The notes beneath the pieces are model-generated. The model ran no database searches. It was not told where the DNA came from and saw only the letters and a program-made list of their open reading frames with translations. A stretch of DNA of 64,000 nucleotides from Paludibacter sp. (lineage in GTDB: Bacteria > Bacteroidota > Bacteroidia > Bacteroidales > Paludibacteraceae), in assembly GCA_019163375.1 (NCBI GenBank), contig JAFLKK010000008.1:310001-374000 (forward strand), given 5' to 3'. Both the position numbers and the translations under genes were made by a program. This document shows positions 23,664 through 39,204 of the stretch, in pieces. How positions within the stretch are numbered: position 1 is the stretch's first letter; the number at the start of each line of letters is the position of its first letter.

Positions 23664-25322
<1,659 letters not shown>

Positions 25323-25405: not shown

Positions 25406-25480
25406 CCCGCAGGCGCAACCCTGTGGATTCTATATATAAGCCAAACCCCTTGTCGCTCTCGAGTGACAAGGGGTTTTTGG
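25406..25480 (+). repeat. 75-bp repeat with terminator, copy 1
   Basis: From CCCGCAGGCGCAACCCTGTG through the hairpin AAACCCCTTGTC/GACAAGGGGTTT (25443-25478). The same unit, with one mismatch in the first 44 bases, is at 28030-28104, so the pair flanks the GH74 gene. It also ends the groEL transcript. Confidence 0.9.
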
Positions 25481-25578: not shown

Positions 25579-27906
25579 TCATTTTCCCGAATCACCATAA
25601 AAAGTTCCGCGACCATGAGTCCCCACATAAACACGCCCGTAAGTTTTGGGATCACCGGTTATATGCAGGATCAATCCCCATTGATGTTGATCGTCATTAA
25701 TGCGAACCCAGGTTTTAGCCGTGTCATCTGAGCGAAAAATTCCACGAAGTCCATTTACAACACCAACCAGGTATAGTGCAGCATAGTCAGCATTAGGTGC
25801 CGCTTTTCCAAAACCGAATGCATGTATTTCCTGAACACCTTCAAGTTTAATAAATTGTTTTCCGCTAACTGTTGAATGATACAGTCCGTCAAATGAAGCA
25901 ATCCATAAATCACCTTCTTTACCGGGAGCCGCGTAAATACGATCTTGTCCACCTCTTGAATCTCCACGGTTGCCTCTGTGTTTAGGTAATCCATCAGATA
26001 AATTCAAGACCTCTTCTGTGAAATTAAGTCCTTTGTCGTTACTGACAAACAACTTTCCTTCAAAAAGGGAAATAGCATAGAATTTTGTTGGATTGACAGG
26101 ATCGGCAATAACTCGTGTATCACCTGGAATACCTTTACATTCAATCCAACTTGCACCTTTATCCGAAGTAGCATAAACCGGGATTAGTTTTTGTGAGCGA
26201 TTGCCCGAACCATAATCGCCCCGAACAGGAGTTGGTGCCCAAATCCAGGTTGCTCCATCGGCTGAAACGGCGATATACCCAAGGCTACTTTGCGACGTAG
26301 GCATAGAAGTGGGTTGCCAATTCTTCCCAAAGTCGTTAGAATAAGCTATATTTTCATGTATATTATCATTCGAAGATCTACCTACACGAACAATAATTTC
26401 AGGATTATTTGCGGCACAAGCCACGCCATTTGTATTATTAAAGCGAGGATTGTCAAAACTTCCCGTGGCTGGTTTGTCTAAATTCCAATGCACAAAACCA
26501 CCGTAATCACCGATTGCAGTAATTACCGGCGCACCTTTCGATGGGCTAAGCAATTCGAGTGCTACCGTTTCTTCAACTCCGGTAGTCATCACACTCCATT
26601 TTGTCGGTTTACCTTTGTCCATATCGGTCAGGTTAAAGGTTTCATGCCCGCCGTAACCGGTTGTAAACATTGCATGATCGGAATTAGAAGGATCTATTTC
26701 AATATCAAACAACCAGTGAATACCGGTTTTTTGTACATAAGGTGCGAGAGAATAGTCGTAAGTTCCACCACCTGCAAATACCTTTGCCCAGGTTTTACCT
26801 CCATCAAGACTGCGGAAGATTTCTTCTCCTTTTTCAATTCTATATCGGTTATACGAGCTCACGATAAGTACTTTCGGATTTCTCGCATCCACCGAAACGG
26901 CAGCGTAACCAAAAGCCCGTGTTTTTGGATCAGGTTTATCCGGTGTAATTTCTGTCCATTCATCGGTTTTTGTATTCAGTTTCCACACTCCTCCGTTGGT
27001 CATTTTAGTAGGACCAGGAGCATCTCCATAGGTTATAAACATATTTCCGTCGGAAGCAAGCACTGCGCGAGTCGGACGATATTGAACCGGTTGTTTGGGA
27101 ACAGGCTGCCAGGTTTTACCACCATCGGTACTTCGAAACAAATTATGATGATTCAAAAGTGATACTCCCACATAAATCGTGGAACTAGCTTTTCCGGCTG
27201 TTCCGCTTCTCGGATCAAAAATTGTAAAAATAACTCCGCTTCCCTGATTCATTCTAATCCAACGCATAATGCTGTCCTTATCACGCATAGACGTAGGAGA
27301 ATTTTCAGTAATATCAGGAAAGTTTTCTACTTTATTCCAGGTCACTGCGCGGTCGGTACTTCTCCAAAGTCCGGCATGACGTGTGCCTACATAGAGAATA
27401 TTCCCGTTGTTTGGATCAATAGCCATACGTTCGCCATTGCCACGACCATCTTCGTTGCCACCCATTTTGAACGGGACATTGGTGCGCTGAAAAGTTTTGC
27501 CGCGATCATCGGAACGAAGAATTGCTCCGTTTGGGGAACGATCGTTGGTATAAGTTCCGCATGAAAGGAAAAGTCTGTCGGGATCGGAAGGGTCGAGGGC
27601 AATGCTCTCAACTCCCATCAGGTTAACATCTTCGTAAGGCACCCAATCCAACAAGGGTTCCCAACGCAAGGTTGCCGGATCCCGGCGATAAGCACCGCCC
27701 ATGTCGGTACGACAATAACACAAATCTTTGACCGTAGGATGAAAAACGATTCCGTCAACAAATCCACCTCCTACCATTTGAACATTTTTCCAGATGTAGG
27801 GTGTTGACGAAGGTTTCTGACTAAAAGTATCTGCATTTATGGCAAAGACCAACATGATACCTGCAAGACTGATTCTAAAAGACTTTGATCTAAGATATTT
27901 GTTCAT
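25579..27906 (-). CDS. GH74 family endo-glucanase/xyloglucanase, secreted
   Basis: The 775-residue protein has a signal peptide (about 1-29) and two seven-bladed propeller halves marked by repeated Asp-box motifs (STDGGKTW, SLDGGKTW, SDDRGKTF, SDKGASW, SDDTAKTW). The N-terminus GGGFVDGIVFHP...CRTDMGGAYR and the later GDYGGFVHW hold the two catalytic aspartates of GH74 (about D68 and D466). Such enzymes cleave the beta-1,4-glucan backbone of xyloglucan. It is flanked by 75-bp direct repeats, with no SusCD pair beside it. A -7-like TAACTTTG lies at 27979-27986 on the minus strand. Substrate is inferred. Confidence 0.9.
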   Translation of the reverse strand: MNKYLRSKSFRISLAGIMLVFAINADTFSQKPSSTPYIWKNVQMVGGGFVDGIVFHPTVKDLCYCRTDMGGAYRRDPATLRWEPLLDWVPYEDVNLMGVESIALDPSDPDRLFLSCGTYTNDRSPNGAILRSDDRGKTFQRTNVPFKMGGNEDGRGNGERMAIDPNNGNILYVGTRHAGLWRSTDRAVTWNKVENFPDITENSPTSMRDKDSIMRWIRMNQGSGVIFTIFDPRSGTAGKASSTIYVGVSLLNHHNLFRSTDGGKTWQPVPKQPVQYRPTRAVLASDGNMFITYGDAPGPTKMTNGGVWKLNTKTDEWTEITPDKPDPKTRAFGYAAVSVDARNPKVLIVSSYNRYRIEKGEEIFRSLDGGKTWAKVFAGGGTYDYSLAPYVQKTGIHWLFDIEIDPSNSDHAMFTTGYGGHETFNLTDMDKGKPTKWSVMTTGVEETVALELLSPSKGAPVITAIGDYGGFVHWNLDKPATGSFDNPRFNNTNGVACAANNPEIIVRVGRSSNDNIHENIAYSNDFGKNWQPTSMPTSQSSLGYIAVSADGATWIWAPTPVRGDYGSGNRSQKLIPVYATSDKGASWIECKGIPGDTRVIADPVNPTKFYAISLFEGKLFVSNDKGLNFTEEVLNLSDGLPKHRGNRGDSRGGQDRIYAAPGKEGDLWIASFDGLYHSTVSGKQFIKLEGVQEIHAFGFGKAAPNADYAALYLVGVVNGLRGIFRSDDTAKTWVRINDDQHQWGLILHITGDPKTYGRVYVGTHGRGTFYGDSGK

Positions 27907-28029: not shown

Positions 28030-28104
28030 CCCGCAGGCGCAACCCTGTGGATACTATATATAAGCCAAACCCCTTGTCGCTCTCGAGTGACAAGGGGTTT
28101 TGGT
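28030..28104 (-). repeat. 75-bp repeat with terminator, copy 2
   Basis: Near-identical to 25406-25480, in the same orientation and 2624 bases away. Its hairpin (28067-28100) terminates the lipoprotein gene that ends at 28170. Confidence 0.9.
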
Positions 28105-28169: not shown

Positions 28170-28973
28170 TTATCGTCTATTACTTTTCATCAATAATCTC
28201 TTAAACGCATTAGCCTTACTGCGTACATTTAGTGCACCATCATCATCTTTAAAATACATCCATTTAAAATCTGAAGGAATAGTGTTCGACATCCTCATTG
28301 TTACATCACCTGTGGTTTTTGAAACTTTCTCTATCTTAAGAACTATTTCATTCCACCCTTTCTTATATTTTATATCATAAATAATAGTTCCCGTAAAACC
28401 ATCTACAGTTCCATCACACATTCCTCTTTGTGTAACTTCTCTATCGGCATAGATAAACAATGATAATGCAACGCCCTGTAGCTTGGAGAAATCAATATCA
28501 AAATCTAGTAAAATACTATCCAAAGTAATATCTGTCAGTGAAGCGCTATCCAAACCTGCCAGTAAAGTGCTATCAAAAGTAATAGTTATTAACGAATTAA
28601 TACTCGTAGTAATATTTGTTCTCATCAATTCCCCTTCTTGTCCATTATGGTAAGCAACAATATCAACCGGTTCACTAATTAGTGCCTCTGCATCACTAAC
28701 CTGAACCCCACTTATTGCACCAATCTCCGAGAAATAAGGCGTCATAGGAATTGGTAATATAATTGAAAAATCTCCAACCTTCGACACTTTTGCAATAAAA
28801 TCATCATTAAATGTGATTGATTCAGCAGGACTTGCTGCATAGTTTACAATCGTACCATGAATAAATCCACTGCTTGTTATTGAACTCTCCGCCGATGGTA
28901 CATTTTCATCTTTTCCGCAGCTGTATACAGCTGCAACAACTACAAATAAAACTACTTTGAAAGTTATTTTCAT
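28170..28973 (-). CDS. Putative lipoprotein, unknown function
   Basis: From the ATG ending at 28973 the 267-residue product begins MKITFKVVLFVVVAAVYSCGKDE, a lipoprotein signal with lipobox cysteine C19. The mature part is rich in beta-strand-like stretches and contains an internal SITFDSTLLAGLDSASLTDITLDSILLDF low-complexity segment (only part is distinctive). I do not recognise a family. The ORF track's start 12 codons earlier is not part of the signal peptide. Its upstream region is nearly identical to that of the next gene. Confidence 0.7.
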   Translation of the reverse strand: MKITFKVVLFVVVAAVYSCGKDENVPSAESSITSSGFIHGTIVNYAASPAESITFNDDFIAKVSKVGDFSIILPIPMTPYFSEIGAISGVQVSDAEALISEPVDIVAYHNGQEGELMRTNITTSINSLITITFDSTLLAGLDSASLTDITLDSILLDFDIDFSKLQGVALSLFIYADREVTQRGMCDGTVDGFTGTIIYDIKYKKGWNEIVLKIEKVSKTTGDVTMRMSNTIPSDFKWMYFKDDDGALNVRSKANAFKRLLMKSNRR

Positions 28974-29115
28974 AATTAAACTTTGGTTATATTCGCCATT
29001 CTTTGGCATTATCCCCCTACTCTTATGACGGATTTTCGGGTTACTCCATTTTCTTTATAAACTAAAGGTGCACAACTATATAAAGTTATGCTACCAGATT
29101 AGTTTAATCCCACTA

Positions 29116-29146
29116 CAAATATAGTGAGTTAATTTGACACTGTCAA
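29116..29146 (-). promoter_or_regulatory. Promoter of the lipoprotein gene
   Basis: Minus strand reads TTG-N20-TATATTTG; predicted leader of about 136 bases before the start codon. Confidence 0.8.
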
Positions 29147-29282
29147 CAAATACGAGATGTATTTTTAATATTATTTTTATAAAATACGAAATTGTTATTA
29201 TCAATAACTACTACATACAGAAGTTGATGAGATGACGGAACCCGACAACGGCCTTGCACCTGTCAGCATCCCCAAAATACGA

Positions 29283-29320
29283 AAAACCCCCTTGTCGCTC
29301 TAAAAGTGACAAAGGGGTTT
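29283..29320 (-). terminator. Terminator of the 29350-30171 gene
   Basis: AACCCCCTTGTC/GACAAAGGGGTT hairpin, same family as the three other minus-strand terminators in this region. Confidence 0.82.
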
Positions 29321-29349
29321 GATTAGTTAGAATGTGCAGCAACGAATAA

Positions 29350-30171
29350 CTATTTTACTCCAAAATCAAATACCTTTCCAGCTGACCCTCCAGGATTTGA
29401 ATTTCCTGCTGACAGAAAACAGTATTCACCTACCTCTAGATCGACATTTGGAGTAACTTTATACACTCCGGATTTTAATTTCTCAACATTAAAACGAATT
29501 CTTAATTTATCGTCAACTCCCATTGAAACGCCTGAGTAGGCATTCATTGAACCAATAACAAATTCCCTGTTCTTTTTCTTTGAACTTAATTTTATTAAAA
29601 TAAATTCATTTGGACTGGATGAAGACGAAAACCAAGAGGTAGATGCATTTAAGCTCTGCCCTTTTTCAAAATAAAAATAAAACACTGGTTTTGTCTCAAA
29701 GATTTGTAAGAGTGCTGTAGGTGCATCAATTGTCGATTTCATTTTTGTTTTGGCAATTCCATAGGTCATCTGCGTCATAATACCACTACCCATTTTTGTT
29801 TGCGAACAAACTGTAGGTTCTATTGATTTCATTTCTGTTTTACCCTCATTAACCATCAAATAATAAACTCCCGATTCATGAGCTGCATTTGGGTCATTAA
29901 TATCACTTGTTGCATTTTCTTTATTGCCTGAAGCATCTACCATTGCACTTGTAATCTCATCCGGAATTTTGTCATCTTTCATTTTAATTAAAGCGTCAAT
30001 CGAAACGTCAAAATTAGTTTTAGATGTTTTGATTTTACTAATAATGATTGAAGGAGATAGTCCTTTTTGAAGAAGTGTAATTACAGTAGCGTTTGTAAGT
30101 ACTTCATCATTAATTTGTCCAGAAACTGTTACACTAAACAGTAAAGCGAAAATGAAGAATAATTTGTTCAT
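29350..30171 (-). CDS. Secreted protein of unknown function
   Basis: The 273-residue product has a signal peptide ending near VSGQ (about residue 19). Residues 25-80 contain a helical motif (VITLLQKGLSPSIIISKIK, then DALIKMKDDKIPDEI) that I have seen in Bacteroidetes secreted proteins without a known role. The remainder looks beta-rich. No lipobox cysteine. It has its own copy of the duplicated promoter and terminator, so it is transcribed alone. Confidence 0.72.
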   Translation of the reverse strand: MNKLFFIFALLFSVTVSGQINDEVLTNATVITLLQKGLSPSIIISKIKTSKTNFDVSIDALIKMKDDKIPDEITSAMVDASGNKENATSDINDPNAAHESGVYYLMVNEGKTEMKSIEPTVCSQTKMGSGIMTQMTYGIAKTKMKSTIDAPTALLQIFETKPVFYFYFEKGQSLNASTSWFSSSSSPNEFILIKLSSKKKNREFVIGSMNAYSGVSMGVDDKLRIRFNVEKLKSGVYKVTPNVDLEVGEYCFLSAGNSNPGGSAGKVFDFGVK

Positions 30172-30327
30172 GAATGTGATTTTTACTATTTTGCCTACTC
30201 TACAGCTTTTCGGCTTACGCTCCCTATTCTTTATCGGGCTTAGGGTTATTCCGTTTTGAATCTAAATTAAATAAATAAGCAATTTTACATTGCAAAATCC
30301 ATGCCATTTTTTAGTCAAATTCCGCCA

Positions 30328-30358
30328 CAAATATAGTGAGTTAATTTGACACTGTCAA
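30328..30358 (-). promoter_or_regulatory. Promoter of the 29350-30171 gene
   Basis: TTG-N20-TATATTTG on the minus strand, identical to the promoter at 29116-29146; predicted leader about 150 bases. Confidence 0.8.
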
Positions 30359-30475
30359 CAAATTCGAGATATATTTTTAATATTATTTTTATAAAATACG
30401 AAATTGTTATTATCAATAACTACTACATACAGAAGTTGATGAGATGACGGCACCTGTCAGCATCCCAAGAATACG

Positions 30476-30514
30476 AAAAACCCCCTTGTCGCTCTCGAGT
30501 GACAAGGGGGTTTT
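30476..30514 (-). terminator. Terminator of the GH20 gene
   Basis: AAAACCCCCTTGTC/GACAAGGGGGTTTT hairpin, followed on the minus strand by a T run. Confidence 0.88.
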
Positions 30515-30536
30515 GGAATAAGTACTATCTGTTGGG

Positions 30537-32891
30537 TTACCACGCTCCTATTTCGTCCACAAACAGGGTGCTGCTGCCACCCACTCTGGGGAAATCGAGT
30601 GGACTGTCGGGGGCTTTTTTGAGCACCACTTTCAGGAAGCGAACACGCACAGGTGGGAAAATCATCAGCGGACGATACACTTCCCAAATGGGAGCGGTGG
30701 GGTGAGTCGTTGTATTGTCGGCAATAAGATTATATTGTTTACCGTCGAGCGACCCATACAATTGTATTTCGGGCGAAATGGCTACTCCAAGAGCTGTGGC
30801 GTGAAGCATGCCTATCGAAAATTTCTCGATAGTAACGGAATTCAAAGCATAGGTACACTCAAAAATAATCTCGCGGTCGGCACCTTTGCCCAGCGCCACC
30901 CACTGATTGGTAACTTTTGCATTGCCTTCCCTCCCATCGGTCAGCGCATTGGCATTACCCCCATCGTACCACCCGCTAGCCACATTTTTGGTATAACTCA
31001 GCCCCGTGAGTTTACTCACCACAAAAGAGCCTGAAGTAGCTTTGCCAATCATTTTACCGTTTAGAAAAGCCGCAGCAGTAAATCTTACAGAAGCATCAAT
31101 CGCAAAGGGGCGAATGTACAAGGCATCAGTTACTGTGGGTGTCTTGCCGGTGGTATTATAATGAATCTGTACATCGGGGTGATCGCACAGCAAGGCTATT
31201 CGCAACTTCCTGTCGGCAGTAGGTGTAGACTGAAACTGCACATCGAAAAATGCACGGCCAGGCTGCATGTTCAACTTGTTCAACCGATCAAAATCGGCCG
31301 ACATACGGCTACGAAAGCTATCCCAGTTACGATTCTCTTTACTTCCCCATACCACTTCGGCCATGGCCGACACGCGCGGAAAAGCCATATACTCAACCCG
31401 CTCGGACGTAGGCATATACTCCGTCCACACATTGGCCTGCGCACCCAGCACATGTTTGGCTTCGTCGGCAGTCAGCTCGGCTGGTATCGGTTCATATTCG
31501 TACACCATTTTCAGGGGCAAAAAACCGCCGATAGTTGTTGGCTCATTCAACGGTTCGGCCTGGTATTTATCCAGATAACAATGCGTACCCGGAGTCATAA
31601 TCACATCATGACCGCTTTTGGCTGCTGCCACACCACCCTGCGTACCGCGCCATGACATCACGGTGGCGTTAGGCGCCAATCCACCATCCAAAATTTCATC
31701 CCAACCTATGATTTGTCGACCTTTAGAATTCGCAAATTGCTCGATGCGCTCTACAAAATAGCTTTGCAACTCTTCTTCATTTTTTAAATTCCGGCGTTTG
31801 ATAAGCGCCTGACAATCGGTACATACTTTCCATCGATCTTTCAGACATTCGTCGCCACCGACGTGAATGTACTTGCCGGGGAAAATATCCATAACCTCAG
31901 TCAATACATTCTCCAGAAAATCAAAAGTTGTTTCACGCGGACAGAACACTTCAGTGAAAATACCCCACTTGGTAGCCACTTTTATGGTCGAATCCTGTGT
32001 GCACGACAGATACGGATAGGCAGCAATAGCTGCTTGCGCATGTCCGGGCAACTCAATCTCTGGAATCACTGTGATAAAACGCGCCTTTGCATACGCTACC
32101 ACCTCGCGGGCTTCAGCCTGCGTATAAAATCCACCGTAAGGTTTTCCATCGTATTGCTGTGGATAGCGATCGAAATAGTAGCCTTCAAGCGTTTCGCTGC
32201 GCTTAGAGCCTACCTCGGTCAGGCGGGGATATTTTTTTATCTCAATGCGCCAGCCCTGATCATCGGTGAGATGCCAGTGAAAAGTATTGAGCTTATGAAT
32301 GGCCATTGCATCAATGTATCTTTTGATGAATGATAGCGGGAAGAAGTGACGACTAACATCCAGATGCAATCCACGGTATGCAAACCGGGGCACATCACTT
32401 ATAAGCACACACGGCACCACCCACCTGTTTAGTATCGATCGCTTTTGGACGTAAATATCGGTAGGCAATAGCTGATAGAGCGATTGTAAACCATAAAAAA
32501 AGCCGTTGCCAGCTTGCGCACTTAATTTGATATTTTGTGGCGAGATTTGCAAGTCGTAAGCCTCTGTATTTACATCGGGACTGGTTATTTGTTGAAAAAT
32601 TACAGCGTTAGTCGCGCCAGTTTTGCTATTGTGCTGAACATCTAATTTGATGCCGGTCACCAATGCAAACCGGGTAGCAAACTGCTGCGCCAGTTTCATC
32701 ACTTCGGGTTTGTTTGGACAAAGAATTACGGTCTTTTTATTAAACGTAAACATCCCACTTTGAGGTATCAATTTTTGGGGATAAGGAATAATATTATATT
32801 CGCTTGCAACAAGATGGCTAAAACCGGCAGCACCTACCAGAAAGAAAAAACCGACAAAAATGCGTTGTAAAGATGAAGGTAATTTTATCAT
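30537..32891 (-). CDS. GH20 beta-N-acetylhexosaminidase, secreted
   Basis: The 784-residue enzyme has a signal peptide, a GH20b N-terminal domain (NIIPYPQKLIP), and a catalytic barrel with the Asp-Glu pair in HVGGDECLKDRW (about residue 345). FHWHLTDDQGWRIEIK and the WDEIL motif are typical of the family. A chitobiase-like C-terminal domain (IHYNTTGKTPTVTDALY) and a final F5/8-type-C-like carbohydrate-binding module follow. It trims terminal GlcNAc/GalNAc from glycans in the periplasm or on the surface. A -7 box TATATTTG at 32922-32929 (minus) overlaps the ORF-track start at 32924, so I start at 32891. Confidence 0.94.
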   Translation of the reverse strand: MIKLPSSLQRIFVGFFFLVGAAGFSHLVASEYNIIPYPQKLIPQSGMFTFNKKTVILCPNKPEVMKLAQQFATRFALVTGIKLDVQHNSKTGATNAVIFQQITSPDVNTEAYDLQISPQNIKLSAQAGNGFFYGLQSLYQLLPTDIYVQKRSILNRWVVPCVLISDVPRFAYRGLHLDVSRHFFPLSFIKRYIDAMAIHKLNTFHWHLTDDQGWRIEIKKYPRLTEVGSKRSETLEGYYFDRYPQQYDGKPYGGFYTQAEAREVVAYAKARFITVIPEIELPGHAQAAIAAYPYLSCTQDSTIKVATKWGIFTEVFCPRETTFDFLENVLTEVMDIFPGKYIHVGGDECLKDRWKVCTDCQALIKRRNLKNEEELQSYFVERIEQFANSKGRQIIGWDEILDGGLAPNATVMSWRGTQGGVAAAKSGHDVIMTPGTHCYLDKYQAEPLNEPTTIGGFLPLKMVYEYEPIPAELTADEAKHVLGAQANVWTEYMPTSERVEYMAFPRVSAMAEVVWGSKENRNWDSFRSRMSADFDRLNKLNMQPGRAFFDVQFQSTPTADRKLRIALLCDHPDVQIHYNTTGKTPTVTDALYIRPFAIDASVRFTAAAFLNGKMIGKATSGSFVVSKLTGLSYTKNVASGWYDGGNANALTDGREGNAKVTNQWVALGKGADREIIFECTYALNSVTIEKFSIGMLHATALGVAISPEIQLYGSLDGKQYNLIADNTTTHPTAPIWEVYRPLMIFPPVRVRFLKVVLKKAPDSPLDFPRVGGSSTLFVDEIGAW

Positions 32892-32921
32892 ATCACTATT
32901 TGTTTTTGTATTTTGCTTGCA

Positions 32922-32929
32922 CAAATATA
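32922..32929 (-). promoter_or_regulatory. -7 element of the GH20 gene promoter
   Basis: TATATTTG on the minus strand, 30 bases from the chosen start; no clear TTG at -33. Confidence 0.55.
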
Positions 32930-37593: not shown

Positions 37594-38244
37594 ATGAACA
37601 ATCAAAAAGCTATTGTGATAGGCTCTACCGGAATGGTCGGCAAAGAGCTTGTCAAAAAATTAATTGAAAACGAACATTATTCGGAAATTATCTCACTGGT
37701 ACGCCGTCCGAGCGGAATTACAAATCCAAAACTCGATGAGCATGTAATTGATTTCGACCGACCTGAAACGTGGAAAGACCTGGTAAAGGGAGATGTGCTT
37801 TTTTCGGCTCTGGGAACTACTATTGCGAAAGCAAAAAGCAAAGAAGAGCAATTCAAAGTCGACTTTACCTATCAGTACAATGTTGCTAAAATAGCAGTTG
37901 AAAACGGAGCTACAAGTTATGTACTGATCTCCTCGGCAGGGGCTAATTCCAACTCCAAAGCATTCTATATGAATACGAAAGGAAAACTGGATGAAGCTGT
38001 TCAGGGTTTACCATTTGAGTACATCAACATCCTGCGCCCCGGTCAGCTTCACGGCAAACGAACCGAAAAACGCCTCGGAGAAAAGGTTGGATTATCGGTA
38101 ATGTATAGCCTGAATAAAATAGGATTATTCAAACGTTACAAACCCATTAATGACAAAAAGGTGGCTAAAGCAATGATTCATGCTGCCCGAAAAACACATT
38201 CTACTATTTACACCCTCGACGAAGTACACGAACTGGCTAAATAA
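37594..38244 (+). CDS. NAD(P)-binding Rossmann-fold protein (HTATIP2/TIP30-like), copy 1
   Basis: The 216-residue protein has an N-terminal dinucleotide-binding motif VIGSTGMVGKELVKKL and the SDR-related pattern GDVLFSALGTT, YVLISSAGAN and NILRPGQLHG, as in the atypical short-chain dehydrogenase group of HTATIP2/oxidoreductases. It lacks a clear YxxxK catalytic pair, so a redox role is uncertain. A close paralogue follows 310 bases downstream. Confidence 0.85.
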   Translation: MNNQKAIVIGSTGMVGKELVKKLIENEHYSEIISLVRRPSGITNPKLDEHVIDFDRPETWKDLVKGDVLFSALGTTIAKAKSKEEQFKVDFTYQYNVAKIAVENGATSYVLISSAGANSNSKAFYMNTKGKLDEAVQGLPFEYINILRPGQLHGKRTEKRLGEKVGLSVMYSLNKIGLFKRYKPINDKKVAKAMIHAARKTHSTIYTLDEVHELAK

Positions 38245-38430: not shown

Positions 38431-38553
38431 CAGCTACTTTCGCATAAAAATACTCTCTTTGTAACGTTTGCATAATTTTTATTGTATTGATATCATCTTC
38501 ATCAACAAATGATATTTCACTAAATAGCATAACCTGTAACTAAATTGTATCTT

Positions 38554-39204
38554 ATGAGTATCCAAAAAGCAATTGTTCTTGGAGCTACCGGAACGGTAGG
38601 CAAAGAACTTATCGAAAAACTTATCGAAAACGAAAATTTTACGGAAATCATCTCTCTGGGCGTAAAACCCTGCGGCTTAACAAGCCCAAAACTGACTGAG
38701 CACATCATCGACCTCAGCACACCCGAAATATGGAAAGACGCCGTACAAGGCGATGTACTATTCTCAACATGGGGCACATTCGTAGAACAAGCCAAAACCA
38801 AAGATGAGCAATACACGGTAGACTACAGCTATCAGTACAAAGTGGCCGAAGTTGCAGCTCAAAATGGTGTTACAGCCTATGTTCTCGTTTCGTCGGCAGG
38901 CGCTGATATTAATTCAAATGCATTTTACAAGAAAATAAAAGGAAGACTTGACAAAGCCGTTCAACGTCTACCATTTGAATATATAAATATTCTACGTCCG
39001 GGTAAACTGTACGGAAACAGAAACGAAACAATACTTAGCGAACGGATAAAATTATCGATGCTGCGACGTTTGAATAAAATCGGATTATTGAAACAATTCA
39101 GACCCATTAAGGAAAAAATAGTGGCAAAAGCAATGATCCACGCAGCACGAAAATATCACTCCACCATCTATACGCTCGACGAGGTATATCAACTGGCCAA
39201 ATAA
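38554..39204 (+). CDS. NAD(P)-binding Rossmann-fold protein (HTATIP2/TIP30-like), copy 2
   Basis: 216 residues from the ATG at 38554; the track's TTG three codons earlier is less likely. It aligns with copy 1 along its whole length (IVLGATGTVGKELIEKL, GDVLFSTWGTF, YVLVSSAGAD, NILRPGKLYG, and an almost identical C-terminus). The central ALGTT of copy 1 became TWGTF, which may alter cofactor or substrate contacts. A terminator follows at 39231. Confidence 0.85.
   Translation: MSIQKAIVLGATGTVGKELIEKLIENENFTEIISLGVKPCGLTSPKLTEHIIDLSTPEIWKDAVQGDVLFSTWGTFVEQAKTKDEQYTVDYSYQYKVAEVAAQNGVTAYVLVSSAGADINSNAFYKKIKGRLDKAVQRLPFEYINILRPGKLYGNRNETILSERIKLSMLRRLNKIGLLKQFRPIKEKIVAKAMIHAARKYHSTIYTLDEVYQLAK

Follow-up and report, generated by a model that had tools for sequence, protein, structure and literature searches.

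The interval between hex and groEL in this Paludibacter sp. genome carries two non-homologous secreted-protein genes, X and Y, each preceded by a near-identical copy of the same intergenic tract. The tract is composed of the terminator hairpin of the preceding gene, a 110-nt spacer and the Bacteroidota-type predicted promoter of the next gene. Our preferred reading, to which we assign a probability of about 0.6, is that genes for secreted proteins were added singly at a hotspot between hex and groEL, while the neighbouring terminator-promoter segment was copied by unequal recombination or gene conversion. All positions refer to the window, the whole stretch of 64,000 nucleotides that was analysed.

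The interval is bounded by two constant neighbours. The hex gene (30537-32924, minus strand) encodes a GH20 beta-N-acetylhexosaminidase (Pfam PF00728, 7.8e-125) with 57-65% orthologues in the genus, and groEL (23691-25322, plus strand) is convergent with the interval genes. Read 5' to 3' on the minus strand, the order is hex-T1-spacer-P1-leader-X-T2-spacer-P2-leader-Y-T3-Z-T4-groEL, where T and P denote predicted terminators and promoters. X (29350-30171, minus strand) is a secreted protein of 273 aa, 83% identical to its counterpart in P. propionicigenes and 39% identical to one in an uncultured, distant bacterium (L137). Y (28170-28973, minus strand) is a lipoprotein of 267 aa with homologues in G033, G009 and G002; in G009, arrays of Y paralogues are also present at two other loci (L077 5488-9587 and L134). 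The start of Y is likely to be 28973 rather than 29009, because the longer reading frame would begin 4 nt past an RNA motif of the leader, unlike the Y relatives. Z (25579-27906, minus strand) is a BNR/sortilin-type secreted protein by Pfam, with best relatives 42% identical.

The original prediction held that the two genes behind the repeat are unrelated and that both are secreted, and the protein comparisons bear this out. X begins with a signal peptide and Y with a lipobox, VYSC. Homology between the two, which that prediction had named as the finding that would reduce the arrangement to a plain tandem gene duplication, was not detected (BLASTP E 2.8, hhalign probability 2.6%). A domain search with X gave a sub-threshold match to PPC, and the search for solved-structure relatives of X or Y returned none of weight.

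The core of the repeat also proved to be as first described: 124 bp that include a predicted promoter align between 29115-29238 and 30327-30450, with mismatches only at 29152 and 29159. The full direct repeat extends over 29099-29320 and 30311-30513 with one 18-bp indel (86% identity overall, E 6e-74), the 18 bp of copy 2 (29099-29320) being missing from copy 1 (30311-30513). As both genes are read from the minus strand, copy 1 lies 5' of X and copy 2 lies 5' of Y; the terminator half closes the preceding gene, which is hex for copy 1 and X for copy 2. The repeated unit is thereby the terminator of the gene before joined to the promoter of the gene after, rather than a promoter and terminator placed around one gene. 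Identity ends at the promoter, and the tract includes neither a leader nor any gene; past the promoter, the leaders of X and Y are about 55-62% alike. The proposal of a cassette duplication or a gene insertion therefore survives in part, in that a segment has been duplicated before non-homologous genes, but the copied DNA is purely intergenic and reaches no further than the promoter.

If an entire gene unit had been duplicated in tandem and one of the two coding sequences had then changed until no likeness was left, a direct repeat flanking one gene and two secreted products with the same kind of leader would be accounted for. However, this scenario would have to leave intergenic DNA 98% identical beside coding regions that retain no homology, and X has an 83% orthologue while Y has its own family elsewhere. 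We regard such a history as very improbable.

Searched across all 29 contigs (4.66 Mb), the genome yielded two copies of the tract, both at the hex-groEL locus; the further cassette copies for which the original prediction proposed to look did not appear. Since the tract is present only as two neighbouring copies, it was duplicated locally and does not belong to a repeat scattered through the genome. Among 59 relatives, the search for further copies returned just a weak 66-bp match, in G001.

The two predicted promoters within the tract are identical. P1, ahead of X (30327-30358, minus strand), reads TTGACA-N17-TATATTTG and has a promoter score of 11/12; P2 lies ahead of Y (29115-29146, minus strand). 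We take this sequence also to match the Bacteroidota promoter consensus TTG...TAnnTTTG. The predicted terminator of hex, T1 (30477-30514, minus strand), has 18-nt arms that are 94% complementary, followed by a T-run (-25 kcal/mol, z -7.1). In T2, the predicted terminator of X (29285-29320, minus strand; -22.2 kcal/mol), the spacer-side arm is identical to that of T1, whereas the opposite arm differs; of the two hairpins, T2 has diverged more. T3 (28030-28101, minus strand), a predicted terminator behind Y that has a 33-nt tail, lies upstream of Z, and T4 (25406-25477), a predicted bidirectional terminator beside groEL, lies downstream of Z. Folding energies of the hairpins range from -22 to -28 kcal/mol, much lower than those of shuffled sequences, and T1, T2 and T4 have the G+C-rich stem and the following U-run on the transcribed strand expected of putative rho-independent terminators.

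This hairpin occurs four times in the present genome, always at the hex-groEL locus, and once in P. propionicigenes (G016), while none was found in the remaining 46 of the 48 genus genomes. The single homologue in P. propionicigenes sits between X and groEL, and by this position T4 is the putative ancestral groEL-side terminator. A possible relic of the hairpin downstream of hex in G005 (score 30, against a shuffle maximum of 24) is suggestive only.

The near-perfect arms of the hairpin could recall a short mobile element, or a repeat of REP/MITE type, that entered both gaps, and a different dispersed repeat does occur in the gaps of G033. On the other hand, two adjacent tract copies in 4.66 Mb and a hairpin confined to this locus within the genome are not what such an element would leave, and the predicted promoter and terminator stand in working positions within the tract. 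Pfam searches of the tested neighbour genes revealed no transposase or other mobile-element gene. An inserted element of this kind is thus improbable.

The gene content of the interval varies among relatives, which were compared with one genome per species. In G007 and G009 the interval is empty and hex adjoins groEL. P. propionicigenes has the order hex-X-groEL with one hairpin, beside groEL. Two other genes lie between hex and groEL in G005, and four genes occupy the interval in G033, where a Y homologue adjoins groEL. The present genome has X, Y and Z. The suggestion that X (29350-30171) alone was the inserted unit does not agree with this distribution: X is already beside hex in P. propionicigenes, and it is Y and Z that are absent there. 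Z was absent from every hex-groEL interval read in the relatives, and is a newcomer at the site.

Z is moreover flanked by a second direct repeat, formed by T3 and T4 (28030-28101 and 25406-25477; 72 bp, 98.6% identical), one copy on each side. This pair, which the original prediction did not mention, is an independent instance of local intergenic copying. Together with the terminator-promoter tract pair, it means that intergenic DNA has been freshly copied nearby at two separate gene boundaries.

Two further observations concern repeats and duplications in the same regions. The G033 interval contains several copies of a different repeat of ~85 nt (TTCAACTGCTGACAAGG...; L066 5685-5772, 8416-8508 and 9176-9443), of which relics are found in G016 and G009, and which is possibly REP-like. 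Elsewhere in the window, 37594-38244 and 38545-39204 encode adjacent, similar NAD(P)-binding-type proteins, and the relatives read have one gene there.

The spacer and promoter upstream of X are unrecognisable in P. propionicigenes (best local score 26, as compared to a shuffle mean of 26.6). Because no counterpart of this DNA can be detected there while X itself is 83% identical, the 98% identity between the two copies in the present genome points to recent copying rather than to slow change. The same comparison bears on the idea that the two regulatory regions are independent and resemble each other through functional convergence or strong constraint. The promoter does lie within the tract, but the 110-nt spacer is near-identical as well, and it is precisely this spacer that cannot be recognised before X in P. 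propionicigenes; we give constraint or convergence very little credence.

According to our preferred reading, local copying of the hairpin-spacer-promoter tract would have placed X and Y each behind the same promoter, and copying of the groEL-side terminator would have left one on each side of Z. The most likely mechanism would be homologous recombination at the shared hairpin or intergenic DNA. This could have been unequal crossing-over between a hex-T-P-X chromosome and a hex-T-P-Y chromosome, or ectopic gene conversion in which the hex-X gap overwrote the X-Y gap. As a result, each gene would be transcribed singly: the predicted promoters are identical, while a DUF805b-type leader and a predicted terminator belong to each gene separately.

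The boundaries of the tract, one inside the hairpin and one at the promoter, are compatible with recombination between similarly organised gaps. A T2 that is half identical to T1 is expected if the exchange stopped inside the hairpin, but mutation could give the same result. Counting against the explanation, efficient recombination would call for more homology than the ~38 bp of the hairpin. Which copy gave rise to the other is not readable from the two sequences, because copy 1 lacks the 18 bp of copy 2, yet T2 is the more diverged hairpin. The arrangement resembles the products of gene conversion and unequal crossing-over, a general bacterial process, in its near-identical non-coding direct tracts with sharp ends and one gene between them. 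It differs from them in that a complete terminator-promoter module has been copied between non-homologous genes, and not part of a paralogous pair. Such an event is unusual, although it does not form a category of its own.

The leaders that follow the two promoters contain a DUF805b-type RNA motif. The motif lies at 30192-30223 in the X leader (minus strand; RF02914, 32.8 bits, E 2.5e-6) and at 29014-29049 in the Y leader (minus strand; 35.1 bits, E 4e-7), scores that fall 2.8 and 0.5 bits under the RF02914 gathering cut-off of 35.6 bits. The leaders of the X orthologue in P. propionicigenes (37.7 bits) and of the Y homologue in G033 (45.7 bits) score above it. Both motifs are in the same-strand 5' leader, 20 nt before the start of X and ~40 nt before the preferred start of Y. 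Other Rfam matches in the region (ohsC, mir-1537 and others) were below cut-off and were taken as chance.

DUF805 or DUF805b motifs were found in 46 of 60 relatives, often clustered at ~0.6-1.5 kb from one another. As called by a simple home-made rule, a signal- or lipoprotein-like N-terminus is encoded by 60 of 74 motif-led genes, as compared to 58 of 159 control reading frames, and the 74 genes fall into 52 families. A DUF805b-type leader before unrelated secreted-protein genes is thus a genus-wide pattern, often in arrays. Arrays of unrelated secreted-protein genes, each with a DUF805 or DUF805b leader, are also present at L124, L125, L126, L127 and L137, and similar gene types recur in the arrays of distant bacteria, such as the FISUMP-like proteins in L127 and L137.

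We considered, and rejected, array leaders as local duplicates of one another: leaders within an array are no more alike than those elsewhere in one genome (p 0.58), and therefore leader copying does not account for the arrays. Likewise, the 55-62% likeness between the X and Y leaders is no greater than that seen when DUF805-type leaders of different loci in a single genome are compared; it is older than, and separate from, the recent tract repeat. The locus resembles the DUF805/DUF805b RNA families (RF03081 and RF02914, cis-regulatory candidates) in that the motif stands right before the start codons of X and Y. It departs from them in that the genes behind the motifs encode unrelated secreted proteins and not DUF805 proteins, the recent repeat leaves the motif out, and the X and Y copies score below the Rfam cut-off. 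The literature searched contained no description of a role for this RNA family.

The tight arrays of DUF805/DUF805b-led, mostly unrelated genes could be taken as the work of a dedicated, site-specific system that exchanges secreted-protein genes as integron-like cassettes, with the present locus as one such array. The distant homologue of X in L137, which lies between two DUF805-led lipoprotein genes, would suit it, and a variable number of unrelated genes with a recurring hairpin between them is shared with integron cassette arrays. Nevertheless, it is the promoter and not the motif that marks the end of the copied tract, leaders within arrays are no more alike than elsewhere, and the motif has the position expected of a leader, immediately ahead of start codons. 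No recombinase was seen nearby, and Pfam found no integron integrase among the flanking genes. Unlike the promoterless cassettes of integrons, each gene here has its own predicted promoter, a plain terminator hairpin and a differing spacer; attC features such as paired R boxes and extrahelical bases are absent, the hairpins being almost perfectly palindromic and followed by a T-run. A dedicated cassette system is unlikely. Our preferred reading, accretion at a hotspot with recombinational copying of neighbouring intergenic DNA, would catch the addition of genes soon after it occurred.

A gene added behind a near-exact copy of a terminator and promoter could be transcribed immediately and separately from its neighbours. 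The ~200-bp direct repeats should also permit the loss of X. The DUF805/DUF805b leaders, which precede genes for many kinds of unrelated secreted proteins, offer a handle on the role of the motif. A broader and rather doubtful extension is that DUF805-type leaders may mark exchangeable secreted-protein genes of Bacteroidota, whose arrays acquire, drop and rearrange members through recombination in common non-coding DNA. If this were true, non-homologous genes would each keep their own promoter, leader and terminator, and the surface proteome would shift while the expression module remained constant.
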